A stretch of 64,000 nucleotides of DNA from Liolophura sinensis. Taxonomy: Eukaryota > Mollusca > Polyplacophora > Chitonida > Chitonidae. Each line of letters starts with the position of its first letter. Position 1 is the first letter of the stretch. The position numbers were made by a program, and so were the translations under genes. Positions 1,438-61,801 of this stretch are shown one piece after another. Below the pieces are notes generated by a model that did not search any database, was not told the origin of the DNA, and was given only the letters and a program-made list of their open reading frames with translations. The stretch is taken from contig NC_088304.1 of assembly GCF_032854445.1 (NCBI RefSeq), positions 30,077,732 to 30,141,731 of the forward strand, written 5' to 3'.

Positions 1438-1600
1438 ATACTTACCTGGCACAGGGGCTACCGTGATCAATCAGGCGGTGCCCCCAGGGCGAGGCCTTCC
1501 CATTGCACTTCGGTGGGCTGACCCCTGCGATCGCCCCAAATGTGGGCGACTCGGGTGCGTAATTTTTACTCAGGGGGACTGCGTTCGCGCTATCCCCTTT
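1438..1600 (+). ncRNA. U1: U1 snRNA, unit 1
   Basis: A 163-nt spliceosomal U1 RNA gene. The 5' end ATACTTACCTGGC is the universal U1 5' terminus, whose ACUUACCUG pairs with 5' splice sites. Stem-loop I has a GATCAATCAGG loop where U1-70K binds. Stem-loop II carries the U1A-binding loop ATTGCACTTC between CCC and GGTGGG. Stem-loop III is closed by CGCCC/GGGCG around the loop AAATGT. A single-stranded GTAATTTTTAC is the Sm-site candidate, and the terminal stem is GGGGACTGCGTTCGCGCTATCCCC. All elements are intact, so the gene looks functional. A 3' box follows at 1611. Confidence 0.97.
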
Positions 1601-1610
1601 CATGAACCTA

Positions 1611-18441: not shown

Positions 18442-18641
18442 NNNNNNNNNNNNNNNNNNNNNNNNNNNNNNNNNNNNNNNNNNNNNNNNNNNNNNNNNNN
18501 NNNNNNNNNNNNNNNNNNNNNNNNNNNNNNNNNNNNNNNNNNNNNNNNNNNNNNNNNNNNNNNNNNNNNNNNNNNNNNNNNNNNNNNNNNNNNNNNNNNN
18601 NNNNNNNNNNNNNNNNNNNNNNNNNNNNNNNNNNNNNNNNN
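18442..18641. other. Assembly gap (200 N)
   Basis: Exactly 200 N, a placeholder length. Left of it is pogo P10, right of it mid-ORF2 of a LINE. The true distance and continuity are unknown, and the tandem array may be longer. Confidence 0.98.
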
Positions 18642-18643
18642 AT

Positions 18644-20377
18644 TATGATGAACAAAAAAACTTACCTTTTGCTTTTGTTTGTCTTGATCAAGAGAAAGCT
18701 TTCGACCGTGTAAGTCACGAATTCATGTTCTCAGCGTTACGTACATATGGATTTGGGGAATCATTTATTGGATGGGTGAAACTATTATACACAGATATTT
18801 CGAGTTCAGTTATTGTCAACGGATATATTTCCGAGCCATTTTCAGTAACTCGGAGTGTAAGGCAAGGCTGTGGGCTTTCCCCACTGTTGTATATTTTATG
18901 TCTTGAGGCTTTAGCCGTCAGGATTCGCAATGACGAAGATATTGTCGGCATATTGCCACCCGGTAGCCGGGATTATGTAAAGATAAGTTTGTATGCTGAC
19001 GATGGCACCTGTTTATGTTCGACTGAAAAGTCTATTGATAAAATTTTGTATTGGTGTCATTTGTTCGGATCCGCTTCTGGGGCTAAATTAAATTTGGGGA
19101 AAACAAAAGGGTTGTGGCTAGGGAAGTGGAAGTCCCGTTCAGACCATCCGTTTGGGATCTCCTGGCCAGACAATGTAAAAATTTTGGGGATTTTCTTTGG
19201 GAAAGGGGATTTGTATGCATTAAATTGGGAAAAGATTATTAAAAAGTGTAGCGATGTTCTTAATTTGTGGCAAACTAGGTCTCTGTCCTATTTTGGTAAA
19301 AGTCTGGTTTTAAAGACCTTAGCTGTTTCTAAACTTATTTATGTGGGCTCAATTTGTTCTGCCCCCTTTGATGTTGTTAAACGCTTAGAGCGCAAAATGT
19401 TTAACTTCTTGTGGGCAAACACTCAGTTTGATCCCATTCAGAGGGAAGTTACCTACTCCCCCGCTTTGAAAGGTGGTCTTTCAATGGTTCATTTGCCGAC
19501 GAAATTTGATGCTTTGCGTTTGTTTCATTTATATAAGTTAATTACCTGTACTGAAGCAAAATGGTGTCATTTTTCTGAATACTGGCTTGGTTTTTCTCTC
19601 CGGGCGCATAGGCCGGATTTTATTAATAATTCAATGCCACATTCGGATTTTCGTCCTACTTTCTATAATGAATGCCTTGTTGCTTATCATAAATTTAATA
19701 AGTTGTACCCTAATTTTGACTGGCATCAACCACTTAAATGTGCTTCTTTTTATAGTCTACTTATTAAGCATGTATATAAGAGACCTCGTGCTGTGGGATT
19801 ATACCCTACCATTAATTTAAAACATACCTGGATGGCTATTTTACATCCTTTCTTAGATTCCTGTAGTAGGAATGTCGCGTGGCGATTGTCACACGACATC
19901 CTACCTACGAATTATGTTCTGTTTCTGCGAAGGGTACAGTCCGATATGTTTTGCCCTTTATGTAAGACCAAGGAAACGAATGAACACCTATTATTAGATT
20001 GTAAATTTTCCAAACCCTTGTGGCGTATTGTTTGTAGCTGGCTAGGGCGTATTGTCGGTAAGCCTGTGCGCTGCTGCATACCCCTAGTCCAGTTTAATAT
20101 TCTTCCTTCTGGTTTGTCTAAAGAGCAAGTGGCTGTATGTTTATTATTAGTTTTTGAGGCGCGTTTGGCCATATGGTTAACAAGAAATGATGTTAAGTAC
20201 TCGCATGTCCAGCCGTCGTCAGCCGGCCGTATTATGTTTTTCTTAAATCGTCTCAAGTTTAGGATTACAGTTGATTTTTACCGTTTACCCAGAACGGAGT
20301 TTAATAAATATTGGTGTTCTACGAACATATTTTGTAAAGTTGTTGAGAGCAAACTAGAATTTCTGTTTCATACTTAA
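18644..20377 (+). CDS. ORF2 (reverse transcriptase C-terminal part), Tx1-like LINE copy 1
   Basis: Open from the gap edge to a stop at 20377 (about 577 codons visible). It starts within the RT palm: FVCLDQEKAFDRV (first catalytic Asp region), then SVRQGCGLSPLLYILCLEALA and the YADD box in SLYADDGT. The C-terminus has CPLCKTKETNEHLLLDC, the zinc-binding zf-RVT-type C2HC pattern seen in L1/Tx1-group elements. No RNase H domain is present. Compared with copy 2 it lacks the internal stops, so this visible part could be functional. The clade call rests on motif style (QEKAFDRV, RQGC-LSPLLY, terminal C2HC) and should be confirmed by phylogeny. Confidence 0.85.
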   Translation, partial: YDEQKNLPFAFVCLDQEKAFDRVSHEFMFSALRTYGFGESFIGWVKLLYTDISSSVIVNGYISEPFSVTRSVRQGCGLSPLLYILCLEALAVRIRNDEDIVGILPPGSRDYVKISLYADDGTCLCSTEKSIDKILYWCHLFGSASGAKLNLGKTKGLWLGKWKSRSDHPFGISWPDNVKILGIFFGKGDLYALNWEKIIKKCSDVLNLWQTRSLSYFGKSLVLKTLAVSKLIYVGSICSAPFDVVKRLERKMFNFLWANTQFDPIQREVTYSPALKGGLSMVHLPTKFDALRLFHLYKLITCTEAKWCHFSEYWLGFSLRAHRPDFINNSMPHSDFRPTFYNECLVAYHKFNKLYPNFDWHQPLKCASFYSLLIKHVYKRPRAVGLYPTINLKHTWMAILHPFLDSCSRNVAWRLSHDILPTNYVLFLRRVQSDMFCPLCKTKETNEHLLLDCKFSKPLWRIVCSWLGRIVGKPVRCCIPLVQFNILPSGLSKEQVAVCLLLVFEARLAIWLTRNDVKYSHVQPSSAGRIMFFLNRLKFRITVDFYRLPRTEFNKYWCSTNIFCKVVESKLEFLFHT

Positions 20378-20650
20378 TAATGTTTACAAATAATGTGATG
20401 TATGGTGTATATTTGTTTCAAATAGTATAATAACTGTATTATACTTCTACCTTTTATTACTGTTGGAAAATTTTGTAGTTATCCTTCAGAATATTAGCCC
20501 ATAATTAATGCATTCCATGTTTGAGTAATACGTGCAATAAAACTACAGTAATAGTGTTAAAGTGCCATGTTGGCACTTTTTATTTCATCTATCATCGTGT
20601 ATATCCATCTCAACCATTCATCTCAGAATAAATCTTATTCAAAAAAAAAA
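20378..20650 (+). other. 3' UTR and A tail of Tx1-like LINE copy 1
   Basis: AT-rich 3' UTR. Near its end is the perfect 8-bp hairpin AAGTGCCA-TGT-TGGCACTT (20560-20578), 72 nt before the junction, and AATAAA-like sequences at 20537 and 20628. It ends in A10. Confidence 0.8.
20560..20578 (+). promoter_or_regulatory. 3' UTR stem-loop, LINE copy 1
   Basis: 8-bp stem with a 3-nt loop. Copy 2 keeps a stem-loop at the same distance from its 3' end (62088-62108) although the stem sequence differs. This suggests an RNA structure used by the reverse transcriptase. Confidence 0.5.
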
Positions 20651-20710
20651 TGTGGGCGACTCGGGTGCGTAATTTTTACTCAGGGGGACTGCGTTCGCGC
20701 TATCCCCTTT
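20651..20710 (+). pseudogene. U1: U1 snRNA 3' half (nt 104-163) downstream of LINE copy 1
   Basis: The right half of the U1 gene interrupted by the LINE: half of stem-loop III, the Sm site and the terminal stem. The 3' box follows. Not functional as separated from the 5' half. Confidence 0.93.
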
Positions 20711-34583: not shown

Positions 34584-34635
34584 ATACTTACCTGGCACAT
34601 GGGCTACCGTGATCAATCAGGCGGTGCCCCCAGGG
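34584..34635 (+). pseudogene. U1: U1 snRNA 5' part (nt 1-52), cut by LINE copy 2
   Basis: ATACTTACCTGGCAC to GTGCCCCCAGGG, one substitution (CACATGG instead of CACAGGG). It is followed directly by LINE 5' sequence AGATTTTTACAG. Nt 53 to about 103 are absent on both sides of the LINE. Confidence 0.93.
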
Positions 34636-34782
34636 AGATTTTTACAGACCTTTTGATGTGATCCCAAAACACGGCAGCTTTACGGTGGAGAGCCGTATTG
34701 CAACGGCATTTCTTTTTCCCGTTTTACCCCCCTGTCTACATCTGGTAGCAGGGGGGAAGAACTGCCATTTTCCTTGTTCAAG

Positions 34783-35738
34783 ATGGAGAGGGTCCCCCTT
34801 ATTGACCCTAAAATTCTGCAGCGGACAGCGAGACTTGTGGTGTCCGGCGACCTGCCTCAAGGGTCATCTGTAAAGGCTTTGTTTTTGAATTGGCTGTATA
34901 ACCACCATCAGATATACCACTCTGCCGTTGATGCTTTTGGGTGTCTGCGGGGCAGAGGGCAGTTTTGTTGATGCTACTGTCGTTTCTACCGGTCTTATCC
35001 ATCTGGGTGGTGATGTTCGCGTGGAGTTACAGCCTTTTAAAAAGGTACGCACGAGCGTGAGGTTACACTGGGTGCCCCCCTTCTTGACCAACGAGGCCAT
35101 TGCTATGTTCTTGAGTACGTATGGCGACGTAGAGAGAGTGAAGATGGACATATCGAAGGAGGATGACATCCTGTCCGACGTCCGGTATGTCACAATGTGT
35201 ATTGACCATCAACGCAGGGGCTCCATTCCGTATATAGCGGATATTGCCGGGAACTCCATCCTGGTGACAGTTAAGGGCCGACCACCGAAGTGCTTGAAGT
35301 GTTCGGCAGTGGGACATGTCCGGCGTGAGTGCCCGTCGAAATTCTGTGCAAGTTGCAGGCGGCACAATCTCCCTGAGGCGGCTTGCCCGGTGCAGTCGTG
35401 GGCCCAGCGGACAGCGCAGCGTTTAGTCGAAGAGGACGAGTCGGACGATGAAGGAGAAAGCCTTCGTATGGAAGACCAGGAACAGAAAGAAGATGTCAGG
35501 GGAAGCCCGGAGGAAGTGGCGACGAAACCTACCCCAGAGGCAGATACTCCACCGGATACTAGTGTCGTGCCATTTTAGAAACGGAAATAAAGTAGTGGTC
35601 AGCGAAAAGCGTAGCGCCGACGAGGAAAGTTCGGACGACCTGGATTTGGGTGGCTCTCCTGAGGTCACGGCTTCGTCTGAGGGAAAAGAGCCGGTCCCCA
35701 AACGGTATAGGCAGGAAGATGTTGGGGACCCGCCATAG
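34783..35738 (+). pseudogene. ORF1 of Tx1-like LINE copy 2 (RRM-like, CCHC)
   Basis: The first ATG (34783) gives MERVPLIDPKILQRTARLVV. A shift at about 34940 moves the frame to GVCGAEGSFVDATVVST, and another at about 35560 leads into an acidic tail ending at 35738 (KRYRQEDVGDPP). The core matches Tx1-clade ORF1: SVRLHWVPPFLTNEAI, then the IAGNSILVTVKGRPPKCLKC segment with a CCHC knuckle (CLKCSAVGHVRREC) and a second Cys/His cluster (CASCRRHNLPEAAC). Predicted to bind element RNA. Two frameshifts make this copy nonfunctional. Confidence 0.85.
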
Positions 35739-35972
35739 CTGTTGGCGCGCTGTGGTTCCCCGGAGCATCGACCTGATTTATGCCCCTGGACTCTGGCTTT
35801 GCCTAACGGATTAAACTCGGATTGTATGGACTATGGACTTGACCTGGAACGCCCTTGGACTGTGAGTTCTCTTTTAGGGGGTTTCCCCTGTTTTCATACT
35901 TACTTGCAGGTAATTATGACGTTTACCATGTTACCTTTGTATGGTTGTTTTCCCTTTTCTCCTTAGCTAAAT
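35739..35972 (+). other. ORF1-ORF2 spacer of Tx1-like LINE copy 2
   Basis: 234 bp with no supported coding function between the ORF1 stop and the ORF2 ATG. Confidence 0.6.
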
Positions 35973-36165
35973 ATGAAAATAGCTACGCTTAACTGTAACG
36001 GTTTAAGGCAAAAATATCGCAGGGACTTATTGTTTAACTGGGCGAAGTTTAATTCTGTGGATGTTTTGTTTTTGCAAGAATGTTATGTTACTTGTATGGA
36101 TGAGGCCAAAGAGTGGGAGGCAGAATGGGAAGGGAAGGGTTTTTGGAGTTTCGGACTCAATTATA
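35973..36165 (+). pseudogene. ORF2 part 1 (endonuclease start), Tx1-like LINE copy 2
   Basis: MKIATLNCNGLRQKYRRDLL and FLQECYVT are the first APE-endonuclease motifs. The frame is cut after WSFGLN by a Tc1 inserted at TA (36164-36165). Confidence 0.88.
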
Positions 36166-36445
36166 AACTGAACAAAAATATAAACGCACCAACCTATATA
36201 TCCAAGTCAAACTGACCATTATTTGGAAATGGTCAAACCAGTGATATATTTGTTTAATGGGTCCTTCGTGTTGCACAACACAAGTGGTCCCATTGCAATT
36301 GACCATTCTGAGTGGGTATACTCATATGCTGAAAAAGTCAACCCATGTGACCAATGGGGCGTGACAGTGCGATGGTCAGTGTGCGTGAGCAACACGCAGA
36401 CATTCCTTACAGCTTACTCAGTAAAAGGCCACCCCAAAGTGTGGA

Positions 36446-36578
36446 ATGAATGAATGAATGATTATGGCTTAACGCCACATCGGCAATATTTCAGCCATAT
36501 CGCGGCGAGAACAAGGTGAAAACGCGAGACGGTAAAGGTTTTCGACATGATAATATGAACATCAAAAGTAAAACAAAA
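36446..36578 (-). mobile_element. 5'-truncated Nimb-type LINE tail (133 bp) in Tc1
   Basis: Only the conserved 3' end (GAAT tail, then CGGCAATATTTCAGCCATAT). Flanked by 12-bp duplications CCAAAGTGTGGA at 36434-36445 and 36579-36590. A typical dead-on-arrival LINE insertion. Confidence 0.92.
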
Positions 36579-36608
36579 CCAAAGTGTGGATTTGTGCCAC
36601 ATGCCGAC

Positions 36609-37622
36609 ATGCCACAGATGTCACAAATTATGAGGGAGCGTGCCATTGGCATGCTTAATGCTGGGTTATCTGTTACTGCTGTGACAGCCCAACTGAATGT
36701 GCATCATTCCACTATCAGCCGCCTGAGGACTCGCTTCAGAGAGACTGGTACCACAGTCAACCGCGCACATGCCCGCCGGCCACGTGTGACCACGCCCGCA
36801 CAAGACCAGCACATGCGGCTCCAACACCTGCGTGATCGGACCCGCCCAGCAACCAGAACTGCTGATGAGACTGTCGGTCTTCACAACAGGCGGATTTCAG
36901 CCCAGACAGTCAGGAACCGGCTGCGGCAGGCTCATCTCCGGTCACGTCGACTACACGAGGGCATCGACCTAACGGTAGCCCGACGTCGGACACGACTGGA
37001 CTGGGCCAATATTCATGTGCGCTGGACACTTGCTCGTTGGAGGACTGTGCTCTTTAGTGACGAATCTCGCTTCCAGCTGCACCATGTTGATGGCAGAGTT
37101 CGGGTTTGGCGCCGCGCTGGTGAGCGGTATGCTGACGCTAATGTCCTGCGACGGGTGGCTTATGGTGGCGGAAGTGTCATGGTGTGGGAAGGCATTTGTC
37201 ATGGGCAGCGCACACGTCTGCATTTCATCCACGGCAACCTTAATGCACAACGTTACCGAGATGAAATCCTTAGACCTGTTATTGCGCCCTTTGTGGTGCT
37301 CCATCATTTGACTTTCCAACACGACAACGCCCGCCCACACACTGCCAGGATATGCAGGGACTTCCTTGAGGAGGAGGATATTCCTGTCCTCAAGTGGCCG
37401 CCGTATTCACCAGACATGTCACCCATTGAACACCTCTGGGATGTTCTGGATAGGCGTGTCCGCCACCGGGTTCCAGTTCCCCAGAACATTCGCCAAATGC
37501 GAGTGGCACTCCAGGAGGACTGGGACAACATCCCCCAGCCCACAATTGACAACTTGGTGATGTCCATGCGTCGCCGGTGTACAGCTCTACGCGAGGCTAA
37601 TGGTGGTCACACGCGTTACTGA
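36609..37622 (+). CDS. Tc1 transposase, DD34E, apparently intact
   Basis: 337 aa from the ATG of MPQMSQIMRERAIGML. Paired HTH domains span about 1-120 (NVHHSTISRLRTRFRETG, then RRISAQTVRNRLRQAHLRSR), with the GRPR-like ARRPRVTT hook between them. The catalytic core has LFSDESRF, FQHDNARPHTA and, exactly 34 residues after the second Asp, PIEHLWD. GGGSVMVWEGI and the C-terminal NGGHTRY are typical. The length fits the family (about 340 aa) and no stop or shift is seen. Cut-and-paste DNA transposition is predicted. The start was chosen because the frame upstream is Nimb sequence. Confidence 0.93.
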   Translation: MPQMSQIMRERAIGMLNAGLSVTAVTAQLNVHHSTISRLRTRFRETGTTVNRAHARRPRVTTPAQDQHMRLQHLRDRTRPATRTADETVGLHNRRISAQTVRNRLRQAHLRSRRLHEGIDLTVARRRTRLDWANIHVRWTLARWRTVLFSDESRFQLHHVDGRVRVWRRAGERYADANVLRRVAYGGGSVMVWEGICHGQRTRLHFIHGNLNAQRYRDEILRPVIAPFVVLHHLTFQHDNARPHTARICRDFLEEEDIPVLKWPPYSPDMSPIEHLWDVLDRRVRHRVPVPQNIRQMRVALQEDWDNIPQPTIDNLVMSMRRRCTALREANGGHTRY

Positions 37623-37826
37623 CGTCTGTGAACTTGGCCCATTGACCCCCATTGTCCTCTTCCTGCCATTACTGCAGGGCTATTGCTTGAGAATTGATTG
37701 CAATGCTCGCAAATTAAAGCGGAATTGTTCAGAAATATGTCCCATTGTTTTGGGATATGTACTATATTTTGTTACATAAAAAAACAGAAAATATTTGTTC
37801 GTGCGTTTATATTTTTGTTCAGTGTA

Positions 37827-40807
37827 GTTGTGGGGTAGGTATCCTTTTCTCTGCTAACTTTTCGTCGCGTTTTGTTACATACGATCACGAAGGCCGTTTG
37901 GTTGTTGTCGATGCCGCGTTAGATGGTAAATATTTTAGATTTATTTGTCTATATTGTCCAAATGCTATTAGGGAGCGTAAACTCTTTTTGGAAACTATTC
38001 TGCCTTTCTTTTCTACGTCGGTTCCTATTATTTTAGGTGGCGACTTTTAATTGTGTAGAGAGTACTTCTAAGGATAAATTGGGCGGAATACCGTATAAGG
38101 GGGCGGGAGGGGCTGAGATTTTGAAAGCCTATTGTGCTGATTTTGATCTGTGTGAGATCTATCGTCGTGTGCACCCGAACTCCCGGGTGTACACATTTCA
38201 TAAGGGTGATGTCGCCACTCGTATTGATCGTTTTTATATTTCCAATTCCCTCTTTCCTTTTGTAAAGAAGTGTGATATTCTGCCATATGTTTTTTCTGAT
38301 CATGATTTCGTGTTGGTAGAATTTGATGGGTTTGATAATTACTTTAGTAAGGGTGGTGGGTTTTGGAAGTTTAATTCCTCATTGTTAACGGATAATGACT
38401 TTTCTGACGCCGTATACCTGCTTGTTAATACTGAGCTATATAAGTGTGGTGATGATGTTTCTTTAGAGTGGTGGGATAAAATCAAAATATTAGTTGGGGA
38501 CTTAGCCCGCAAATGTGGCACGGCTCGTGCGCGCGAACGCCGTAAGGTATACCGGCAGCTACAAAAGCAATACAGGAAATTACAGACAGAAGAAAAGAAC
38601 CATCCGGGACAGTACATAGACAGAATTAATGGGTTAAAAAAACAGCTTAAAGATTTACAGTTAAATGATATTAATGGGGTTAAAATAAGAAGTAAGGGAA
38701 AGTATTTAGATAACGGGGAAAAGCCTACAAGTTATTTTTTTAAGAGGGAGTCACACAGAAATAAAAAGCAAACTTTGGTCCAACTTATAACTGATACTGG
38801 CATTGTTTCCACGCAGGAGGGCATTATGGCTGCCTGTCGTGAGTTTTGCATTGATCGGCTTTCTCGGGAACCTATCGACCCAGACATATGCGATAATTTT
38901 TTAAGGACGTTGCCGAGGCTAGACCCGGTGACGGCTGATATTTGTGAAGGGCATATTACAAAGGAGGAAGTATATAAAGCTCTGTCGTGTATGAAAAATG
39001 GTAAATCTCCGGGGAATGACGGTTTGACTAAAGAATTTTATTTACACTTCTTTAATCTTTTCTCGGACATTTTGGTAGCCTTATACAATAAATGTTTTTT
39101 GGAGGGTGTTTTACCGTCGTCTTTAAGACACGAATTAATAAGTCTCATTTGTAAAGACCCCCAGCAGAGTAATAATTTAAAATGCTGGAGGCCTATTTCC
39201 TTACTTACCGTGGATTATAAAATTTTATCTAAGATATTAGTTAATAGGTTACAGAAGGTCTTGGGAAATATTATTCACCCTGATCAGACATGCTCCGTCC
39301 CTGGCCGATCAATACTAGATAATTTACATTTGTTACGATCCATTAATGATTATGTTGAACAAAAAAACTTAGCCTTTGCTTTTGTTTGTCTTGATTAAGA
39401 GAAAGCTTTCGACCGTGTAAGTCACGAATTCATGTTTTCAGCGTTACGTACATATGGATTTGGGGAATCATTTATTGGATGGGTGAAACTATTATACACA
39501 GATATTTCGAGTTCAGTTATTGTCAACGGATATATTTCCGAGCCATTTTCAGTAACTCGGAGTGTAAGGCAAGGCTGTGGGCTTTCCCCACTTTTGTATA
39601 TTTTATGTCTTGAGGCTTTAGCCGTCAGGATTCGCAATGACGAAGATATTGTCGGCATATTGCCACCCGGTAGCCGGGATTATGTAAAGATAAGTTTGTA
39701 TGCTGACGATGGCACCTGTTTATGTTCGACTGAAAAGTCTATTGATAAAATTTTGTATTGGTGTCATTTTTAATTAAAAATTAAATTTGAGGAAAAACAA
39801 AAGGGTTGTGGCTAGGGAAGTGGAAATCCCGTTCAGACCATCTCCTGGCCAGACAATGTAAAAATTTTGGGGATTTTCTTTGGGAAAGGGGATTTGTATG
39901 CATTAAATTGGGAAAAGATTATTAAAAAGTGTAGCGATGTTCTTAATTTGTGGCAAACTAGGTCTCTGTCCTATTTTGGTAAAAATGTGGTTTTAAAGAC
40001 CTTAGCTGTTTCTAAACTTATTTATGTGGGCTCAATTTGTTCTGCCCCCTTTGATGTTGTCAAACGCTTAGAGCGCAAAATGTTTAACTTCTTGTGGGCA
40101 AACACTCAGTTTGATCCCATTGAAAGGGAAGTTACTTACTCCCCCGCTTTGAAAGGTGGTCTTTCAATGGTTCATTTGCCGACGAAATTTGATGCTTTGC
40201 GTTTGTTTCATTTATATAAGTTAATTAACTGTACTGAAGCAAGATGGTGTCATTTTTCTGAATATTGGTTGGGTTTTTCGTTACGTAAACTTAGACCTGA
40301 TTTTCTAAATAATTCAATGCCTCATTCTGAGTTTCGTCCTACGTTTTATAATGAGGTATTCTCCGCTTATGATAGATTTAATAAGTTATACCCTCATTTC
40401 GATTGGCATAAGCCGCTTCGATGTGCTACGTTCTATCATTTACTGATAAAACATGTGTATAAAAGACCTCGTGCGATAGCCTTGTACCCTACAATAAATT
40501 TAAAGCGGACCTGGTCTGCTATTATGCATCCATTTTTAGACCCTTGTACCAGGAATGTCGCGTGGCGTCTGTCACACGACATCCTGCCAACAAATTACTT
40601 ACTTTTTGTTCGTAGGATTCAATCTGATATGTTTTGCCCTCTGTGTAAAGTTAAAGAAACTAATGAGAATTTGCTGTTCGAGTGCTCCTTTTCACGTCCG
40701 GTGTGGCGGTTAGTTTGTAGCTAGTTAGGGCGTATTGTAGGCAAGCCTGTGCGCTGCTGTATGTCCCTAATCCAGTTTAATATTCTTCCAACTAGTGTAC
40801 AGAATGA
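37827..40807 (+). pseudogene. ORF2 part 2 (endonuclease end, RT), Tx1-like LINE copy 2
   Basis: Resumes at SCGVGILFSANF. The endonuclease continues with IILGGDF, a 1-bp insertion at about 38048, then NCVES, TRIDRFYIS and SDHDFVLVEF. The RT has KNGKSPGNDGLTKEFY, WRPISLLTVDYKILSK and FVCLD followed by TAA in place of CAA (39398), then SVRQGCGLSPLLYIL and SLYADDGT. Small deletions lie at about 39773-39850, and a TGG-to-TAG change at about 40723 interrupts the C2HC region. It ends at the Nimb insertion (target copy TGTACAGAATGA at 40796-40807). Confidence 0.88.
40796..40807. repeat. Target-site duplication (left) of Nimb composite
   Basis: TGTACAGAATGA, repeated at 61790-61801. The preceding G and the following A also match, so the duplication could be 12-14 bp. 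Confidence 0.9.
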
Positions 40808-41062
40808 ATGAATGAATGAATGATTATGGCTTAACGCCACATCGGCAATATTTCAGCCATACCGTGGCGAGAACAAGGTGAAAGCAAGAGACGGTTAAGG
40901 TTTTCGATATGATAATATGAACACCAAAAGTAAAACAAAAAGTACAGACGTGATTGAAATCGAATAAAAGAAAAATAAGATTTAAAACTCGAAAACCAGG
41001 GTTATAGTACATGTATAAATATATATAACTGTTTATCTATAGATATTTATGACAATTAAAAT

Positions 41063-41285
41063 TTATATTTTATGATATAGGCCAATGGCCTTCAAATAAT
41101 TTATGACAACATCGCCAGCGATGTTGTCAAATAAATCATATATAGATTTGACCGTGTAGAATCTCTGCCGAACGTGGGCAAAGTCTACACATTCAACCAG
41201 AATATGTTTGATGCCATATTGAGCATCACATCCAACACACTCGGGAGCACTGCTCCCATCCAAGATGAAATTGTGTGTAAGATGA
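41063..41285 (-). pseudogene. ORF2 C-terminus of Nimb element C (left piece)
   Basis: SSAPECVGCDAQYGIKHILVEC to KAIGLYHKI and stop at 41063. Split from the rest (47216 onward) by Nimb element B. Confidence 0.88.
41273..41285. repeat. Target-site duplication (left) of Nimb element B
   Basis: GTGTGTAAGATGA, repeated at 47203-47215; the ORF2 reading frame of element C is continuous when one copy is removed. Confidence 0.93.
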
Positions 41286-41539
41286 ATGAATGAATGAATG
41301 AATGATTATGGCTTAACGCCACATCGGCAATATTTCAGCCATATCGTGGCGAGAACAAGGTGAAAAATGCGAGACGGTTAAGGTTTTCGATATGATCATA
41401 TGAACACCAAAAGTAAAACAAAAAGTACAGACGTGATTAAAATCGTATAAAAGAAATTAAGATTTAAAACTCGAAAACCAGGGTTATAGTATATATATTT
41501 ATACAACTGTTTTATCTTTAGATATTTGACAATTAAAAT

Positions 41540-44500
41540 TTATATTTTATGATATAGACCAATGGCCTTCAAATAATTGATGACAACATCGCCAGCGATG
41601 CTGTCAAACAAATCATACACAGAGTTGACCGTATAGAATCTCTGCCGAACGTGGGCAAAGTCTACACAGTCAACCAGAATATGTTTGATGCCATATTGAG
41701 CATCACATCCAACACACTCGGGAGCACTGCTCCCATCCAAGATGAAATTGTGTGTCAGATGAGAATGTCCAATACGGCATCTGGTTAAAACGACTTGGTC
41801 TCTACGAGACATATTAAATGTATATGAATTATAGCCAATGACCGGATGAATGGCATGCAGTTTATTATGGACCTGCAAGTTCCATTCACCCTGCCAAAGG
41901 CCACGAATATATTTAAGAATATTGGACTTCATGTCAGTATAAGGGATTTTTTATCTTAGATATGGGTTTATTTAGGGCAGCTTTCGCCTCCCTGTCTGCG
42001 ACTGTGTTTCCATGGATACCAATATGACTTGGTATCCAGCAGAATATAATATCTTTACCTCTTCTAATTAATTCCCTATGTATAGCTAAAATTTGAAGGA
42101 TCAAGGGATTTTTAAATTTATTATTCTGTATTGCCAATAAGCAAGACAAACGAGTCCGTGCATATCATTGCCCTCTGGGCACACCCAGAAGAAACATATG
42201 ATAAGGCAAGGAGTATAGCTCTGGCCTCGGCAGAGAATATTGAAGAAGAGGATGGAAGACGAAAGGAAGAGACCCGCTGCTCTAAGACAGCCGCAGTCGC
42301 AACCCTGTCCCCATCCTTCGACCCGTCAGTATATATAAATTTATAATCCATATAATTAGCTTTAATTTCAGCAAAACCTTGCTGAATTATAAGAGGATTT
42401 ATATTAGATTTATTATATTTACGTAGATCAAATATTAGTTTTGGTTGTGGGAGAAGCCATGGAGGAGACTCCGGAAAAGACACCGGAGCTATATCATCCA
42501 GCTTGATGTTACCTCCCACAATATGGTCCTGTATACGAAGACCGAACGAAGGGATCTTGTTAGGACATTTAGTATATTTGTCTACATATAATGGATTGAA
42601 AACACAGTCGTAGGCAGGGTTTGTTGGATGAGCTTTAAGCTTTGTACTATATTGAAGGCTAAGTTTTATACGTCGGTGATATAAAGAAGGTTCATTAGCC
42701 TCCACGTATAAACTTTCTACTGGTGAGGTTCTAAAAGCACCAAGGCTGAGCCTCAAACCTTGGTGATGAACGGGATCCAACATTTTAATGTACGACTTCC
42801 TAGCGGAACCGTAAATGATGGATGCATAGTCCAATTTAGACCTCACCAGAGAACGATATAAATTAAGTAAAACTGATCGGTCAGCACCCCAATCGGTGCT
42901 AGACACGACCTTAATTATATCGAGAGCCTTTGTACATTTAGCTTTAAGCATTTTTATGTGAGGTATAAAAGATAGCTTACTATCAAATATTATACCTAAA
43001 AATTTTGTTTCTCCAACAATTTTAATCTGTTTACCACAAAAAGTAAGCTCAGGGTCAAGATGAAGTTTCCGTTTATTACAAAAATGCATACCGACGGTTT
43101 TAGACGTTGAAAATCTAAAACCGTTTTCAGTTGCCCATTTCTCGATCTTATTGAGACAAAGCTGCAACTGACGTTCGATATTATTCATGTTCTTAGCTCG
43201 GTAGCATATAAGGAAATCATCGACGTATAAAGAACCCTCTGTGCCAGATGTTAATGTTTTTGCTAGGCTATTTATTTTTATGCTAAACAGAGTTGGTGAT
43301 AGAATGCTGCCCTGGGGTACACCCATTTCCTGCTCATAAGAGTCAGAAAGAGTGGACCCAACCCATACCTTAAACTGACGATCGGATAAAAATTGAGATA
43401 TAAATATAGGTAATCGACCTTTTAGACCCATGTTCGCGAGGTCTTTTAAAATACCATATTTCCATGTGGTGTCGTAGGCCTTTTCAAGGTCAAAAAATAT
43501 GGACACCACATGTTCGTTATTGATGAAGCCATCGCGAATAAAGGTTTCAAATCGAACAAGGTGATCCATGGTAGATCTACCTTGCCGAAAACCACATTGA
43601 ATATTAGATAAAAGCTTGTTGGTTTCAAGAAACCAAACAAGTCTATCATTAATCATCCGTTCCATAGTCTTACAGACACAGCTGGTAAGAGCTATGGGAC
43701 GGTAATTATTTGGATCATTATGATCCTTACCCGGTTTGGGAACCGGGATAATACACGCCTCCCTCCATGAGGCTGGAAAATTACCAGTTATCCAAATATC
43801 ATTAATCAAGTCCAAGAGAGTCTCCAGTGGCTCAGGTGGTAAATGGTTCAGAAACTTATAATATACATTATCAGGACCACAAGCAGTATCGTGGGCCTTT
43901 TTTAATGCAGTTTTAAGTTCATCGATATTAAAAGGATTATTATAATCTTCTAAATTCTTAGAAGAAAAGGGCAATTTAATTTTCTCCTTCTGGTTTTTAA
44001 TACGTTGGAATTCTTTAGTATAATTCTCAGAAGAAGATTTCTTTGAGATTGTTTCAGCTAGTTTATTAGCTATATCGGGTGGAGAAGTTATTATATTATC
44101 TCCATCTTTTAAATGCTGAACTTTTGCTTTATTATTTTTGCCCTTAAGTTTGTGAACCATGTTCCAGACCTTACGCATGGGTGTTTTTGACGTAATGCCT
44201 GAAACAAAGTTCCGCCAACAAGATCGTCTCTTGGACTTGAGTAATCGACGAGCCTTAGCTCGAAAAATACGAACCTGGTTTAAGTTATTATCAGTAGGAC
44301 AATGGTTAAATCTACGTTCAGCCTTTTTACGGTCCTTTATGGCTTTACGACAGTCATTGTCGTACCAGGGTTTACTTTTGGATTTGGGATTTGTCGAGGT
44401 CTCAGGTATAGTTCTATCGGCAGCTCGTAATACAAGCTCGTTAAATTTTAACATAGGATCATCTGCTGCTTTGAGAGTCTCTGGAATGATATCAGCCTCA

Positions 44501-45237
44501 CAGAACATCTCAAATGCGATCCAATCTGCTTTATCGAATTTCCACCTAGCTACACGTTCTAAAGAATTAGAAGTGATATGTTCTAGGATTATAGGAAAAT
44601 GGTCACTACCACAAAGATCGTCATGCACCCTCCAAGAAAAATCTGGGAGAAGTGATGGATCTGTGATAGTGAGATCGATAGCAGAATAAGCGCCATTACC
44701 TGGATGTAAATAGGTGTTAGAACCATCATTGAAATAACACAGTTCCTCCTTCGATAAAAAATCTTCCAAAGTTTTGCCTTTAGCGTTTATATTATTACTG
44801 CCCCATAAGGGGTTATGGGAATTAAAATCTCCCATAAGTATAAAAGGTTTGGGTAATTGTTCTTTTAGATTACGTAACTGCAAAGCTGACAAAGAAATGT
44901 TCGGGGAAATATACACCGAACATAATGTGATTGTTTTGGACAACGAAACACGAACAGCCACAGCCTGCAGTTCTGTATCCAGAGCAACAGGGCTGTGAAT
45001 AACATTGTTATTCACGAAGATGGAAGAGCCGCCTGCAGCTCGATCTTCTTCATTTGAATAAGTGCTGTATAAGGAATAATTTTTCAGAGTTATATTATCT
45101 TTGTCAGATGTCTTCAGGTGAGTTTCCTGAAGACACAGGGCAATAGGATTAACTGATTGAACTAACTGTGTTATTTCAATGAAATTTACCTTAAGGCCTC
45201 GACAATTCCACTGTATAATTTTGTCTAAATAAGACAT
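41540..45237 (-). pseudogene. ORF2 of Nimb element B, two 1-bp insertions in RNase H
   Basis: Endonuclease and RT are intact (MGDFNSHNPLWGS, FFDLEKAYDTTW, LYVDDFLI), as is the first part of RNase H (YTDGSKDGD, SAEARAI). An extra A at about 42149 (GACAAACG) shifts the frame after CTDS, and an extra T at about 41950 (ATTTTTTATC) shifts it again after VADREAK. The rest runs to a stop at 41540. Both are homopolymer insertions, so either recent mutation or sequencing error is possible. Confidence 0.88.
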
Positions 45238-46598
45238 TATGGAGGGAGACGTATAGGAGATTTCTCTTTATGTTTGGACCGAGGACGACCCTTCCTTGGA
45301 GATCGGCTGGAAGATCTCCCTGGTGCGGGTGATGTATCCATCACATCCGCATCCGATGTTGTAGGACCAACATCCTCCAACGATCCAAATCTATTAAACG
45401 TTTGGACAGGGTCCCTAGTGGCCTTCGAGGGACGCTCTGTGGGACCGCTAGGTTTACTATTATCACTATTATATTTATTTTCAGATTTGGTTTTGGCAGA
45501 TTTGTTTTTGAATTGGTTAATTTCAGGTTTATCAGTTTGTTGTTTATTATTGACTGGTTTTATTTGCTGTTCTGCAGTGGTCTGTGTTGAGCAGGAAATA
45601 TGCGCAGGTTGAGCAGCAGGTTGTAAAGATGTGAAGCTAGGTTTGTCGTTTCCAATGGGCCAAGTTAATGAAGTCTGAGTTCCAACAGACGTTGTAGTTC
45701 GCTTGACCACATTGGCAAACGAAGATTGCAGTGAAGTGTTAGAGACGGAGGCCAATTTGCGGGCCTCCTGATAAGAGATATTGTTTTTAGTTTTTAGATT
45801 TATTATTTGCTTTTCTTTAATAAAAAACGGACAGTCCTTGGAGGAGGCCATGTGATCTCCACTGCAATTACAACACCTAACTGTGCTGCTGCAGTCGAAA
45901 CCATCATGACCCTCACTGCCGCATCTAAAACAAACCGTTTTATTTTTACATTGGCCCTTGCCGTGACCAAATTTTTGGCAAGTAAAGCAGCGTGTAGGGT
46001 TGGGAATGTATAAATCTACACTAACCCTATACGGGCCAATGTAGATATACGACGGAAGCGAGGTTGTGTTAAAGGTCAAAAGATATGTATTAAGTTTAAT
46101 GATGTTGCCAGATTTCTTCATAGTGAAGCGTTTAACTCTGGCAACACCCTGTGATTTCAGTTCTGCGCATATTTCCTCCTCAGACAAGTCAATAATATCA
46201 CCATCCCGGTCACGAATTATTCCCTGACAGCTGTTCAGGGAATTGTGCGGGGATGCGAAAACAGATATATCAGCAATTTTATTTAATGATAATAAATTTT
46301 TGGATTGTTGCTTCCGGAAACATTCAATGAGAATGTCTCCGGATCTTAACTTTTTAACTGTTTTTAATGTTCCAGCAGCGCCCTGGAGAGCCCTTTTCAA
46401 TACAAAAAGGTGAATTTTTGAAGCTGGCTTCTGTTCACTCTTAGTCGAGAGAACAATAAAAGCCGGCCAGCTGTCCTGTCCATTATCAAGAGAGTCTGAA
46501 AAAAGTTCTAACTTCCTCTTTTTGTCAGCACTTGATGAAGTCGGCTGAGAGGAAGATCTGTTAGGCATAATTGAAGTTGACATTTGAAATGAGGCCAT
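45237..46598 (-). CDS. ORF1 gag-like protein, three zinc knuckles (Nimb element B)
   Basis: Intact, 453 aa. Same architecture as copy A ORF1: an RRM-like region with KIHLFVLKRALQG and VKKLRSGDILIEC, knuckles CFTCQKFGHGKGQC, CFRCGSEGHDGFDC and CCNCSGDHMASSKDC, and a Pro/Ser/Lys-rich tail. TAA overlaps the ORF2 ATG by one base. Confidence 0.9.
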   Translation of the reverse strand: MASFQMSTSIMPNRSSSQPTSSSADKKRKLELFSDSLDNGQDSWPAFIVLSTKSEQKPASKIHLFVLKRALQGAAGTLKTVKKLRSGDILIECFRKQQSKNLLSLNKIADISVFASPHNSLNSCQGIIRDRDGDIIDLSEEEICAELKSQGVARVKRFTMKKSGNIIKLNTYLLTFNTTSLPSYIYIGPYRVSVDLYIPNPTRCFTCQKFGHGKGQCKNKTVCFRCGSEGHDGFDCSSTVRCCNCSGDHMASSKDCPFFIKEKQIINLKTKNNISYQEARKLASVSNTSLQSSFANVVKRTTTSVGTQTSLTWPIGNDKPSFTSLQPAAQPAHISCSTQTTAEQQIKPVNNKQQTDKPEINQFKNKSAKTKSENKYNSDNSKPSGPTERPSKATRDPVQTFNRFGSLEDVGPTTSDADVMDTSPAPGRSSSRSPRKGRPRSKHKEKSPIRLPP

Positions 46599-47202
46599 TG
46601 TTTATTTTTTTTAAATTTCGCCTTACGTGTCCCCCACCCGCCACGGAGTGCCAACAAGGGCGAATCTACCTCTGCGGATGACCGGCAGAGAATAGAAACA
46701 GGGAATCCACGCAAGGTATACTCGAACAGATTGAGTTATACCAAAAGGTTAAATTCAATCTACTCGATTGACCCATTAGCCACCGCCTTCTGCATTGACC
46801 CCAAAGGAAGTGCATCTGAAGAAGAGCAAACTTGACATCTCAGTAAGACAAAGAATAACAAACGGGATCAAGTGTAGGGCTTGACGTGACCAGCCGATTG
46901 ATCGGACCGGGCCCATCCGACCTCCCGTCTCTCTCCAAGTAAGGGCCAAAGTGGCGTGTTGGGCGTGAGGATCTCGCAAGACCAACCCGCCCTCAGCCAC
47001 CAGGATCCCGTCCTCGTAGATTACGGGTTGCAACCCACGGCAAACAGGTCGCTCCCCGGTTACCTCTCACACAACCGGGAAGATGTGAGCCTATTATATT
47101 CACCGGGCTCACACAGGAGAGCTCTAGGTTAGTCGACTTTTACGACAAGCTTGCCTAGAGGGCTGAGGTCCTATTCTTATCACCCCGGAAACCCCACGGG
47201 GG
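46599..47202 (-). other. 5' UTR of Nimb element B
   Basis: About 600 bp. The middle part (46776-46880, CCGCCTTCTGCATTGACC and following) differs from copies A and C but is nearly identical to element D (61370-61475). The distal 300 bp are common to all. Confidence 0.75.
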
Positions 47203-47215
47203 GTGTGTAAGATGA
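47203..47215. repeat. Target-site duplication (right) of Nimb element B
   Basis: GTGTGTAAGATGA, matching 41273-41285. Confidence 0.93.
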
Positions 47216-50200
47216 GAATGTCCAATACGGCATCTGGTTAAAACGACTTGGTCTCTACGAGACATATCAAGTGTATATGAATTATAGCCAATGACCGGAT
47301 GAATAGCATGCAGTTTATTATGGGCCTGCAAGTTCCATTCACCCTGCCAAAGGCCACGAATATATTAAAGAATATTGGACTTCATGTCAGTATAAGGGAT
47401 TTTCATCTTAGATATGGGTTTATTTAGGGCAGCTTTCGCCTCCCCGTCTGCGACTGTGTTTCCATGGATACCAAGATGACTAGGTATCCAGCAGAATATA
47501 ATATCTTTAACTCTTCTAATTAGTTTCCTATGTATAGCTAAAATTTGAAGGATCAAGGGATTTTTAAATTTATTATTCTGTATTGCCAATAGGCAAGACA
47601 ACGAGTCAGTGCATATCATTGCCCTCTGGGCACACCCAGAAGAAACATATGATAAGGCCAGGAGTATACCTCTGGCCTCGGCTAAGAATATTGAAGAAGA
47701 GGATGGAAGACGAAAGGAAGAGACCCGCTGCTCCATGATAGCCGCAGTCGCAACCCTGTCACCATCCTTCGACCCGTCAGTATATATAAATTTATAATCC
47801 ATATAATTAGCTTTCATTTCAGCAAAACCTTGCTGAATTATAAGAGGATTTGTATTCGATTTATTATATTTACGTAGATCAAATATTAGTTTAGGTTGTG
47901 GGAGAAGCCACGGAGGAGACTCCGGAAAAGACACCGGAGCTATATCCTCCAGCTTGATGTTAGCTCCCACAATATGGTGCCGTATACGAAGACCGAACGA
48001 AGGGATCTTGTTAGGACATTTAGTATATTTGTCTACATACAATGGATTGAAAACACAGTCGTAGGCAGGGTTTGTTGGATGTGCTTTAAGCTTTGTAGCA
48101 TATTGAAGGCTAAGTTTTATACGTCGGTTATATAAAGAAGGCTCATTTGCCTCCACGTATAAACTTTCTACTGGTGAAGTTCTAAAAGCACCAAGGCTGA
48201 GCCTCAAACCTTGGTGATGAACAGGATCCAACATTGTAATGTACGACTTCCTAGCGGAACCGTAAATGATGGATCCATAGTCCAATTTAGACCTCACCAG
48301 AGAACGATATAAATTAAGTAAAACTGATCGGTCAGCACCCCAATCGGTGCTAGACACGACCTTAATTATATCGAGAGCCTTTGTACATTTAGCTTTAAGC
48401 ATTTTAATATGAGGTATAAAAGATAGTTTACTATCACATATTATACCTAAAAATTTTGTTTCTCCAACAATTTTAACCTGTTCACCACAAAAATTAAGCT
48501 GAGGGTCAAGATGAAGTTTCCGTTTATTACAAAAATGCATACCGACGGTTTTAGACGTTGAAAATCTAAAACCGTTTTCAGTTGCCCATTTCTCGATCTT
48601 ATTGAGACAAAGCTGCAACTGACGTTCGATATTATTCATATTCTTAGCTCGGTAGGATATAAGGAAATCATCGACGTATAAAGAACCCTCTGTGCCAGAT
48701 GTTAATGTTTTTGCTAGGCTATTTATTTTTATGCTGAACAGAGTTGGTGATAGAATGCTGCCCTGGGGTACACCCATTTCCTGCTCATAAGAGTCAGAAA
48801 GAGTGGACCCAACCCGTACCTTAAACTGACGATCAGATAAAAATTGTGATATAAATATAGGTAAGCGACCTTTTAGACCCATATTCGCGAGATCTTTTAA
48901 AATACCATATTTCCATGTGGTGTCGTAGGCCTTTTCGAGGTCAAAAAATATGGACACCACATGTTCGTTATTGATGAAGCCATCGCGAATAAAATTTTCG
49001 AATCGAACAAGGTGATCCATGGTAGATCTACCTTGACGAAAACCACATTGAATATTAGATAAAAGCTTGTTGGTTTCAAGAAACCAAACAAGTCTATCAT
49101 TAATCATCCGTTCCATAGTCTTACAGACACAGCTGGTAAGAGCTATGGGACGGTAATTATTTGGATCAGTATGATCCTTACCCTGTTTGGGAACCGGGAT
49201 AATACACGCCTCCCTCCATGATGTGGAAAATTACCAGTTATCCAAATATCATTAATCAAGTCCAAGAGAGTCTCCAGTGGCTCAGGTGGTAAATGGTTCA
49301 GAAACTTATAATATACATTATCAGGACCACAAGCAGTATCGTGGGCCTTTTTTAATGCAGCTTTAAGTTCATCGATATTAAATGGACGATTATAATCTTC
49401 TAAATTTTTAGAAGAAAAGGGCAATTTAATTTTCTCCTTCTGGTTTTTAATATGCTGGAAATCTTTAGTATAGTTCTTAGAAGAAGATTTCTTTGAGATT
49501 GTTTCAGCTAGTTTATTAGCTATATCGGGTGGAGAAGTTAATATATTATCTCCATCTTTTAAATGCTGAACTTTTGCTTTATTATTTTTGCCCTTAAGTT
49601 TCTGAACCATGTTCCAGACCTTACGCATGGGTGTTTTTGACGTAATGCCCGAAACAAAGTTCCGCCAACAAGATCGTCTCTTGGACTTGAGCAATCGACG
49701 AGCCTTAGCTCGAAAAATACGAACCTGGTTTAAGTTATTATTAGTAGGACAATGGTTAAATCTACGTTCAGCCTTTATACGGTCCTTTATGGCTTTACGA
49801 CAGTCATTGTCGTACCAGGGTTTACTTTTGGATTTTGGATTTGTCGAGGTCTTAGGTATAGTTCTATCGGCAACTCGTAATACAAGCTCGTTAAATTTTA
49901 ACACAGGATCATCTGCTGCTTTGAGAGTCTCTGGAGTGATATCAGCCTCACAGAACATCTCAAATGCGATCCAATCTGCTTTATCGAATTTCCACCTAGC
50001 TACACGTTCTAAAGAATTAGAAGTGATATGCTCTAGGATAATAGGAAAATGGTCACTACCACAAAGATCGTCATGCACCTTCCAAGAAAAATCAAGGAAA
50101 AGTGATGGATCCGTGATAGTGAGATCGATAGCAGAATAAATGCCATTACCCGAATGTAAATAGGTATTAGAACCATCATTGAAATAACACAGTTCATCCT

Positions 50201-50687
50201 TCGATAAGAAGTCTTCAACTATCTTGCCCTTATTATTTATGTTATTACTGCCCCATAGGGGGTTATGGGAATTAAAATGTCCCATTATTATAAAAGGTTT
50301 TGGCAATTGTTCTTTTAAACTATGTAACTGGAAAGCCGACAAAGACACGCTAGGAGGAACATACACTGAACATAATGTGATTGTTTCACATAGTGAAACA
50401 CGAACGGCCACAGCCTGAAGCTCTGTATCCAGAGCAACAGGGCTGTGAATAATATTGTTATTGATAAAGATCGAGGAGCCGCCTGCAGCTCGCTCTTCTT
50501 CATTTGAATAAGTACTATATAAAGAATAATTTTTAAGATTTATTTTATCTTTGTCAGATGTCTTCAGGTGAGTTTCCTGAAGACAAAGGGCGATAGGATT
50601 TAGTAATTGAACTAGCTGTGTTATTTCAATAAAATTTACCTTAAGACCTCGACAATTCCACTGTATAATTTTGTCTAAAGAAGACAT
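47216..50687 (-). pseudogene. ORF2 of Nimb element C (main piece)
   Basis: Endonuclease from MSSLDKIIQWNCRGLK, RT with FFDLEKAYDTTW and LYVDDFLI, RNase H with YTDGSKDGD. Breaks: a 1-bp deletion at about 49222 (CATGATGTGGAA instead of CATGAGGCTGGAA) in the fingers region; a TAA at about 47366 (ATATTAAAG instead of ATATTTAAG) after MKSNIL; and the element B insertion. MGHFNSHN replaces the catalytic-region MGDFNSHN, so an endonuclease Asp is also changed. Confidence 0.9.
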
Positions 50688-52035
50688 TATGGAGGGAGGC
50701 GTATGGGGGATTTATCTTTATGTTTGGACCGCGGACGACCCTTCCGTGGAGATCGGCTGTTAGATCTCCCTGGTGCGGGTGATGTATCCATCACATCCGC
50801 ATCTGAGGCTGAAGGACCAACGTCCTCCAACAATCCAAACTTGTTAAAAGTTTGAACAGGGTCCCTAGTGACTTAGAGGGACGCTCTGTGGGGCCACTAG
50901 GTTTATTAGTTTTATTGTTATTACTGTGAGGTTTGTTTTTTGATTTGATGCTGTCATTAGGTTCAGGTTTATCAGATTTTTCGATACTATTTACTATTTT
51001 TATTTGTTCTGCTGAAGTGGTCTGGGTTGAACAAGTGTTTTGCGCAGGTTGAGCCGAAAGTTTGACAGAAGTGGTACTAGGTTTGTCGTTTTCAATGGGC
51101 CAAGTCAATGAAGTTTGAGTAGCAACAGATACTACTCGCTTGACCACATTGGCGAACGAAGTATGCAGAGAGGAATTAGAAGGTAAGACCAATCTGCGGG
51201 CTTCCTGATAAGATATGTTGTTTTTAAATTTGAGGTTGATTATCTGCTTTTCTTTTACGAACAGTGGACAGTCTCTAGAAGAGGCCATGTGATCTCCACC
51301 GCAATTGCAGCACTTAACTATGCTGTTGCAATCGAAACCATCATGACCCCCACTGCCGCACCGGAAACAAACCAGTTTATTTCTACATTGGCCCTTGCCA
51401 TGGCCAAATTTTTGGCAAGTGAAGCAGCGTGTAGGGTTAGGGATATATAAAGCCACATTAACCCTATACGGGCCAATATAGATATATGACGGAAGAGATG
51501 TAGTATTGAATGTCAAAAGATATGTATTTAGTTTAATGATATTGCCAGATTTCTTCATAGTGAAGCGTTTTACTCTGGCAACACCTTGTGATTTTAGCTC
51601 CTCGCAGATTTCCTCTTCGGTTAAGTCAATAATATCAGCATCCCTATCACGAATTATTCCCTGACAGCTGTTCAGGGAATTGTGAGGGGATACGAAAACA
51701 GGTATATCGGAAATTTTATTCAATGACAGCAGATTTTTAGATTGTTGCCTCCGGAAACATTCAATGAGAATGTCTCCGGATCTCAGCTTTTTAACGTTTT
51801 TAAGAGTACCAGCTGCACCCTGGAGAGCTCTTTGTAAAAGGAACGGATGAATTTTGGAGGCCGGCTTTTGTTCACTCTTTGTTGAGAGAACAATGAAAGC
51901 CGGCCAGCTATCCTGTTCATTATCAATTGAGTCAGATAACTTCCTCTTTTTATCAACACACGGCAACAAAGTCGGCTGAGAGGAAGTTCGGTTAGATAAA
52001 TTGGAAACATTTGTAGAAATTTTTAATGTAGACAT
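50687..52035 (-). pseudogene. ORF1 of Nimb element C, one frameshift
   Basis: The frame is intact from MSTLKISTNVSNLS through the three knuckles (CFTCQKFGHGKGQC, CFRCGSGGHDGFDC, CCNCGGDHMASSRDC). A 1-bp deletion at about 50871 (AGTGACTTAG instead of AGTGGCCTTAG) shifts the last 60 codons. Confidence 0.88.
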
Positions 52036-52638
52036 TGTTTATATGTATGAAGTTCACCCCATATGTTCCCCACCCACCACGGAGTGCCAACAAGGGCGAT
52101 GTCTGAACCTGGGGATACCCAGCAGGAAAGACACCAAGGATTCCATATGAGGTATACTCGAACAGATTGATTTATACCAAAAGGTTAAATTCAATCCACT
52201 CGATTGACCCATGAGCCACCGCCTCAAAACGTAGTCCTACAAACGATATTTCAGAAATAATATTTGTTCGCCAAACGATATGCTGTTATTGAGGCAATTA
52301 AGACCACGTAGAGGCAGGACATGACCAAGCCGATTGATCGGACCGGGCCCATCCGACCTCCCGTCTCTCTCCAAGTAAGGGCCAAAGTGACGTGTTGGGC
52401 GTGAGGATCTCACAAGACCAACCCGCCCTCAGCCACCAGGATCCCGTCCTCGTAGATTACGGGTCGCAACCCACGGCAAACAGGTCGCTCCCCGGTTGCC
52501 TCTCACACAACCGAGAAGATGTGAGCCTATTATAATCACCGGGCTCACACAGGAGAGCTCTAGGTTAGTCGACTTTTACGACAAGCTTGCCTAGAGGACT
52601 GAGGTCCTATTCTTATCACCCCGGAAACCCCACGGGGG
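52036..52638 (-). other. 5' UTR and 5' terminus of Nimb element C
   Basis: About 600 bp ending with the family's 5' terminus (CCCCGTGGGGTTTCCGGGG in reverse complement) at 52638, directly joined to the endonuclease of element D. Confidence 0.8.
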
Positions 52639-52888
52639 CAGGGCTGTGGATAATACTGTTATTAATGAATATCGAGGAGCCGCCTGCAGCTCGCTCTTCT
52701 CCATTTGAATAAGTACTATATAATGAATAATTTTTAAGGGCTAATATATCTTTGTCAGATGTCTTCAGGTGAGTTTCCTGAAGACACAGGGCTACTGGAT
52801 TGAAAGATTGAACTAGCTGTGTTATTTCAATAAAATTAACCTTAAGACCTCGACAATTCCATTGCATAATTTTGTCATATATCGCCAT
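52639..52888 (-). pseudogene. ORF2 start of Nimb element D (first 83 codons)
   Basis: MAIYDKIMQWNCRGLKVNF to SIFINNSIIHSP, then cut by the 5' terminus of element C. Closest to copy A in this stretch. The remainder of ORF2 is not present as a distinct copy. Confidence 0.88.
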
Positions 52889-59908: not shown

Positions 59909-59920
59909 TCGCGGTCTCGA

Positions 59921-60939: not shown

Positions 60940-60941
60940 TA

Positions 60942-61789: not shown

Positions 61790-61801
61790 TGTACAGAATG
61801 A
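61790..61801. repeat. Target-site duplication (right) of Nimb composite
   Basis: TGTACAGAATGA, matching 40796-40807. Confidence 0.9.

Follow-up and report, generated by a model that had tools for sequence, protein, structure and literature searches.

Keno and Utopia, which insert into U2 genes, together with Dada-U1 and Dada-U6, were the only transposons reported from small nuclear RNA (snRNA) genes by 2015 (PMC4640811). Other multicopy genes for small RNAs are the targets of the LINEs Mutsu (5S) and Dewa (tRNA-Leu spacer), both of which are target-specific (PMC3706591). In a literature search that included the 2022 Dada survey, with Repbase, Dfam, subscription papers and preprints outside its scope, we found no LINE specific for U1, U4 or U5. 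We describe here two LINE copies joined to the same base of U1 genes in a chiton, and their relatives at fixed bases of the U5, U4 and U2 genes of the same genome. LINEs that are specific for a single base underlie current efforts towards RNA-templated gene insertion, and the evolution of target change in such elements is poorly known.

The U1 gene array and its assembly context

The 609-Mb chiton assembly (632 contigs; N50 37,343,639; longest scaffold 96,433,062) was first published under the name Liolophura japonica (PMC11068029), which was later amended to L. sinensis (PMC12441733). The window, i.e. the whole stretch of 64,000 nucleotides analysed here, lies on contig C10 and contains 11 full U1 genes arranged in tandem, with a repeat unit of approximately 1976 bp. 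The main array comprises about 37 assembled genes (C10:30.03-30.14 Mb), with four additional genes on C627 and three on C6 and C7, and the number of U1 genes genome-wide is approximately 40. Gaps in this assembly average 200 N each, and the length of a gap is therefore a placeholder. The features of the window on which the analysis is based are as follows.

1438..1599, forward strand: intact U1 snRNA gene of 162 nt, the first of 11 (Rfam RF00003, 147.7 bits), used as the numbering reference
18442..18641: assembly gap of 200 N, concealing the 5' part and the 5' junction of copy 1
18642..20650, forward strand: LINE copy 1, with the reverse transcriptase (RT) and C-terminal part of ORF2, the 3' UTR and an A10 tail, the last three A's of which are U1 nt 101-103
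20648..20709, forward strand: U1 nt 101-162 directly 3' of copy 1, then spacer (junction between 20647/20648 and 20650/20651)
34584..34635, forward strand: U1 nt 1-52 upstream of copy 2 (5' junction 34635/34636)
34636..62185, forward strand: LINE copy 2, interrupted, with 5' UTR, ORF1, pieces of ORF2, 3' UTR and tail
34783..35578, forward strand: ORF1 of copy 2, with the frame broken near 34950 and C-terminal zinc knuckles
35973..36161, forward strand: start of ORF2 of copy 2, N-terminal part of an APE-type endonuclease (MKIATLNCNGL...LQE)
36162..37830, forward strand: Tc1/mariner-like DNA transposon within ORF2 of copy 2, ends approximate (DDE_3 7e-19, 36462-37619)
38037..38400, forward strand: C-terminal part of the APE endonuclease of copy 2 (RIDRFYIS...SDHDFV; PDB L1 ORF2p 3.5e-6)
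39349..40789, forward strand: RT part of copy 2, 88% nucleotide identity to copy 1
40790..61789, reverse strand: nested LINE block with RNase H, inside copy 2 and foreign to the U1 element
61790..62185, forward strand: C-terminus of ORF2, 3' UTR and A-rich tail of copy 2
62183..62244, forward strand: U1 nt 101-162 directly 3' of copy 2, with the same junction as copy 1

Two types of repeat unit were distinguished. The main, long-type unit (each of the units in 1438-18441) corresponds to the short unit plus about 1.39 kb inside the spacer. This insert has GTAC on both flanks (TA duplication) and inverted ends (CCGTAA..TGGGGTGA), and it encodes an ORF of 296 aa (e.g. 308-1198, reverse strand) for which Pfam gave no match; it is a DNA transposon that has been amplified together with the U1 array. 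Both U1 LINE copies occupy units of the short type, which lack this insert. A damaged U1 gene (34073-34179), in which nt 1-55 are absent and the remainder is fused to the upstream spacer at a GGGCC match, was found just upstream of copy 2.

Structure and classification of the U1 LINE

The remainder of ORF2 in copy 1 is open for 577 codons (18644-20377). Its best PDB match was human L1 ORF2p (1e-27), with R2 proteins trailing at 2e-9 and weaker, and the RT of the U1 LINE matched RVT_1 in Pfam (1.5e-19). ORF2 of copy 2 is riddled with stops. Its N-terminal endonuclease piece nevertheless matched the L1 endonuclease in the PDB (3.5e-4) and PF03372 in Pfam (7.6e-4), and the C-terminal part of the endonuclease bears the RIDR and SDH motifs. 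A zf-CCHC match in ORF1 of copy 2 (E 0.0035) fell under the Pfam family cut-off. Within copy 2, the RNase H-bearing LINEs (41282-58642, reverse strand) are arranged head-to-tail and abut one another exactly at 47202/47203 and 52638/52639.

The order of the ORF2 domains, endonuclease followed by RT, together with a poly(A) tail and no LTRs, identifies the U1 element as an APE-type LINE. CCHC zinc knuckles in ORF1 are a feature of the Tx1 clade. With an RT nearest to L1 ORF2p, an APE endonuclease, a zinc-knuckle ORF1 and a poly(A) tail, the element is plausibly Tx1-like, in a comparison whose reference set contained no Tx1, Keno or Mutsu sequences.

A shared junction in U1

The 3' junction of copy 1 reads ...ATAAATCTTATTCAAAAAAAAAATGTGGGCGACTCGG and that of copy 2 ...AAAACTTTATCAAAAAAGAAAATGTGGGCGACTCGG, and native U1 reads ...GATCGCCCCAAATGTGGGCG at this site. 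Ten A's (20641-20650) lead into TGTGGGCGACTCGG in copy 1, and the A-rich tail of the diverged copy 2 (A6GA4) meets U1 identically (62183-62186). Since the AAA at nt 101-103 of native U1 (CCCCAAATGTGGG) is common to tail and target, the junction can be placed anywhere from nt 100/101 to nt 103/104, and the U1 match 3' of both copies begins at nt 101. Upstream of copy 2, U1 ends at nt 52, and nt 53 to 100/103 are absent at both ends of the insertion, corresponding to a target loss of 48-51 bp; no target duplication was seen at this copy. The preliminary description of this DNA had the A10 tail of copy 1 passing directly into U1 nt 104 and attributed the same junction to copy 2. The passage from tail to U1 and the shared base were both confirmed from the sequence, with nt 104 being the latest of the four possible positions.

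A pattern consisting of an A-tail followed by U1 from nt 104, with one mismatch tolerated, occurred at exactly two sites in the 609-Mb genome, copies 1 and 2, and the reversed pattern used as a control gave no sites in the same scan. Both copies lie within 42 kb of a single array. We estimate that a second random insertion at the same base in any of the approximately 40 U1 genes would have a probability of about 7e-8, and that the chance of hitting the same base would be about 1/2000 if insertion were confined to U1 repeat units. Both estimates agree with the earlier view that two insertions at one base are hard to ascribe to chance.

An RT search of the genome recovered copy 1, copy 2 (85% identity), a next match of 61% over a short stretch and matches of 39% or less over the full length. 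No further copies of the U1 family were found in the 609-Mb genome by RT, 5' UTR/ORF1, 3' UTR or junction pattern, the counts from these genome searches being lower bounds, and every copy detected sits in U1. No insertion of this family was found in U2, the LINEs inserted there being separate relatives, and a search for relatives among viral contigs gave none.

Relatives in U5, U4 and U2 genes

The nearest relative of the U1 LINE (L034 with L071; C11:3.66 Mb, 3.657-3.669 Mb) is located at the edge of a U5 array. Its A17 tail is followed by U5 from nt 50, with U5 nt 1 to ~44 upstream, its endonuclease and RT match L1 ORF2p at 8e-67, and the zf-CCHC match in its ORF1 (4e-5) is above the Pfam cut-off. 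A genome scan with the U5 junction pattern gave one true site and eight one-mismatch matches elsewhere. A second LINE has inserted into the U5 element at its 5' end, accompanied by a duplication of approximately 40 bp. Like the U5 insertion on C11, the U1 insertions on C10 were found at array edges, where homogenisation may purge insertions less often.

The U4 array contains two LINEs, L037 and L039 (with L072; C11:9.952-9.998 Mb), both joined at U4 nt 53. L039, the U4 insertion examined, has U4 nt 1-69 upstream, which amounts to a 17-bp target duplication (TATTGCTAGTTGAAAAC). For U2, six LINE tails are joined at one base (AAAAA/GTATCTG), and the assembly contains three intact U2 genes and at least six broken by LINEs. 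Some relatives are less strict: apart from the LINE nested in the U5 element, L006 is placed some 33 nt 5' of a U4 gene, and the flank of L035 is unrelated. More numerous, related LINE families cluster in arrays of tRNA, 5S and SRP RNA genes, mostly beside the genes, with L007 and L033 joined within a tRNA gene.

LINE tails joined to U2: L008 (C118:44378), C118:31958, C5:10811, C5:69781, C5:90799, C5:16020853
LINEs in tRNA, 5S and SRP RNA arrays: L007, L009-L033, L038, L041-L043, L045, L046, L049

The tree inferred from the C-terminal part of ORF2 grouped the U1 and U5 elements (100/100) and the U4 and U2-type elements (100/99), and separated the snRNA-gene group (100/100) from the families found around tRNA, 5S and SRP RNA genes. 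The U1 and U5 elements also grouped together in the tree based on RT only (88/87). In the RT tree, built from a set without Tx1 references, the whole group joined human L1 over the other LINEs of the window (100/98). A single APE-type LINE lineage has probably switched repeatedly among U1, U5, U4 and U2 within one genome, with base-exact insertion in each branch.

Target-site similarity was considered as a route for such switching and rejected, since the resemblances in both pairs are too weak. U1 and U5 sites agreed at 10/26 positions (fraction 0.06), which is not significant, and the 12/26 agreement of U4 and U2 sites, obtained with slack (0.013, uncorrected), is too weak to support a claim.

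Independence of the insertions and target specificity

One ancient insertion into U1 could have been duplicated with its repeat unit, the LINEs then diverging while gene conversion kept their flanks alike. The U1-plus-spacer flanks of the short-type units carrying copies 1 and 2 are indeed mutual nearest sequences (97.5%), both copies are at the downstream edge of the same array, and conversion tracts could stop exactly at the end of homology. However, the likeness of the flanks discriminates neither way, since mutual-nearest flanks are predicted both by duplication and by homogenisation of the array. A dead duplicate should drift neutrally, with a ratio near 1, whereas the comparison of the two copies over 473 codons yielded a dS of 0.347, a dN of 0.051 and a dN/dS of 0.146 (bootstrap 95% 0.10-0.20), with 37, 16 and 86 differences at codon positions 1, 2 and 3, respectively. 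Silent-site divergence of this kind would accrue only under selection on the protein, i.e. in lineages that were still retrotransposing, and its predominance therefore indicates that the copies descend from separate active lineages and were inserted independently. Furthermore, the 3' UTRs of the two copies diverge by roughly a quarter, as opposed to 2.5% in the U1 flank that touches them, and the remainder of ORF2 is intact in copy 1 but full of stops in copy 2. We therefore consider it unlikely that one insertion was duplicated together with its U1 unit, which the preliminary description had named as the result that would overturn its reading, and the dN/dS ratio favours two separate retrotransposition events at the same base.

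The poly(A) tail, the affinity to the L1 group and the three A's at the target would also be expected of a non-specific LINE with two insertions in U1, due either to chance or to an L1-like preference for A-rich sites in general. The L1-type target site is TTTT/AA, unlike CCACATTT/GGGG, no copy was found elsewhere in the 609 Mb, and the sister families occupy fixed bases in U5, U4 and U2, so that such an origin appears highly improbable. The element might instead be directed at the array or at array chromatin, with no preference for the U1 sequence itself, the same base being picked by local structure. The more distant families lie beside, and mostly not inside, tRNA, 5S and SRP RNA genes at variable places, and targeting of arrays therefore exists in the wider group; nevertheless, the base-exact recurrence within the U1, U4 and U2 coding regions makes this explanation very unlikely for the U1 family. 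Some LINEs form chimeras with snRNAs, and the U1 piece could accordingly be cargo, with the tail copied from U1 RNA by template switching or with a U1-derived 3' end. About 290 bp of U1 array sequence follow each junction, the match running past the end of the gene and across the spacer up to the next U1 gene, and the 5' half of U1 is also present upstream of copy 2. A cargo or RNA chimera was accordingly ruled out, its residual probability being negligible. We conclude that the two copies very probably represent a low-copy family of APE-type LINEs, with two ORFs and a poly(A) tail, that is site-specific for the loop of U1 stem-loop III, because they share a junction, their dN/dS is 0.146 and their relatives occupy fixed sites in U5, U4 and U2. 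Against this specificity, the known copies number two and come from one array of one species, their downstream U1 units are mutual nearest sequences, the 5' junction of copy 1 falls in the assembly gap, and copy 2 has lost target sequence instead of duplicating it. The U1-specific LINE proposed in the preliminary description is supported by the same evidence, and the copies with unrelated 3' flanks that it had considered contrary evidence did not appear in the source genome, where no copy outside U1 was found.

Proposed mechanism

In the U1 family, the ORF2 endonuclease would itself select the site and nick the bottom strand at 5'-CCACATTT/GGGGCG, a position inside the complement of U1 nt 100-104. 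The freed TTT end would anneal to the poly(A) tail, and ORF2 would reverse-transcribe the element from this TTT primer (target-primed reverse transcription). The top-strand cut would be less fixed: in U1 copy 2 it would lie upstream, with loss of nt 53-100/103, and in U4 it would lie 17 nt downstream, giving a duplication. Utopia and R2 likewise combine precise 3' with variable 5' junctions (PMC4640811). The element would persist in the tandem U1 array, where, with about 37 assembled genes, a few losses may be tolerated. Within the wider lineage, the U1 family forms one branch, and its sister branches would act alike in U5, U4 and U2.

U1, with approximately 40 copies in this genome, is able to host a LINE family. 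A clade that is exact for U1, U5, U4 and U2 in one genome provides related endonucleases with different short targets that can be compared and, if the lineage has indeed switched targets, a natural series showing how a LINE endonuclease changes its target. In U2, where three genes are intact and at least six are broken by LINEs, the cost to the host becomes a concrete question.

Comparison with known systems

Target-specific APE-type LINEs are a known kind of element, and the specificities for U1, U5 and U4 appear to be new, although an unpublished or database-only record of such a family may exist. The new target specificity that had been suggested for the U1 element is consistent with the published list of snRNA-gene transposons, which holds no U1 LINE (PMC4640811). 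Keno, an APE-type LINE earlier placed among the target-specific families of the Tx1 clade, has a fixed 3' junction in an snRNA gene, as observed here (PMC4640811), but targets U2, whereas the U1 LINE targets U1 nt 101-104. The closest match to Keno, by description rather than by sequence, is provided by the U2-inserted LINEs of the chiton, whose junction at GTATCTG precedes by 2-3 nt the start at nt 39 that has been reported for the flank of Utopia and Keno. Utopia resembles the U1 LINE in being low-copy, in its location within an snRNA gene, in its precise 3' and variable 5' junctions and in the target deletions proposed for it (PMC4640811). However, it targets U2 and has a restriction-like endonuclease, whereas that of the U1 LINE is of the APE type.

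Dada-U1 of fish shares the target gene U1 but is a DNA transposon with a DDE transposase, and it generates a 6-bp GCGAAT/C duplication approximately 10 nt upstream of the U1 LINE site (PMC3706591). Mutsu and Dewa, compared by description, are specific for multicopy small-RNA genes like the U1 LINE, but their targets differ (PMC3706591). Tx1L of Xenopus, also compared by description, has an APE endonuclease with sequence-specific nicking (cited in PMC8869645) and targets another transposon. Human LINE-1 is the nearest solved relative of the U1 LINE for both RT and endonuclease, and both elements have a poly(A) tail; however, LINE-1 is not site-specific, and the ORF1 of the U1 LINE, unlike that of LINE-1, ends in zinc knuckles.
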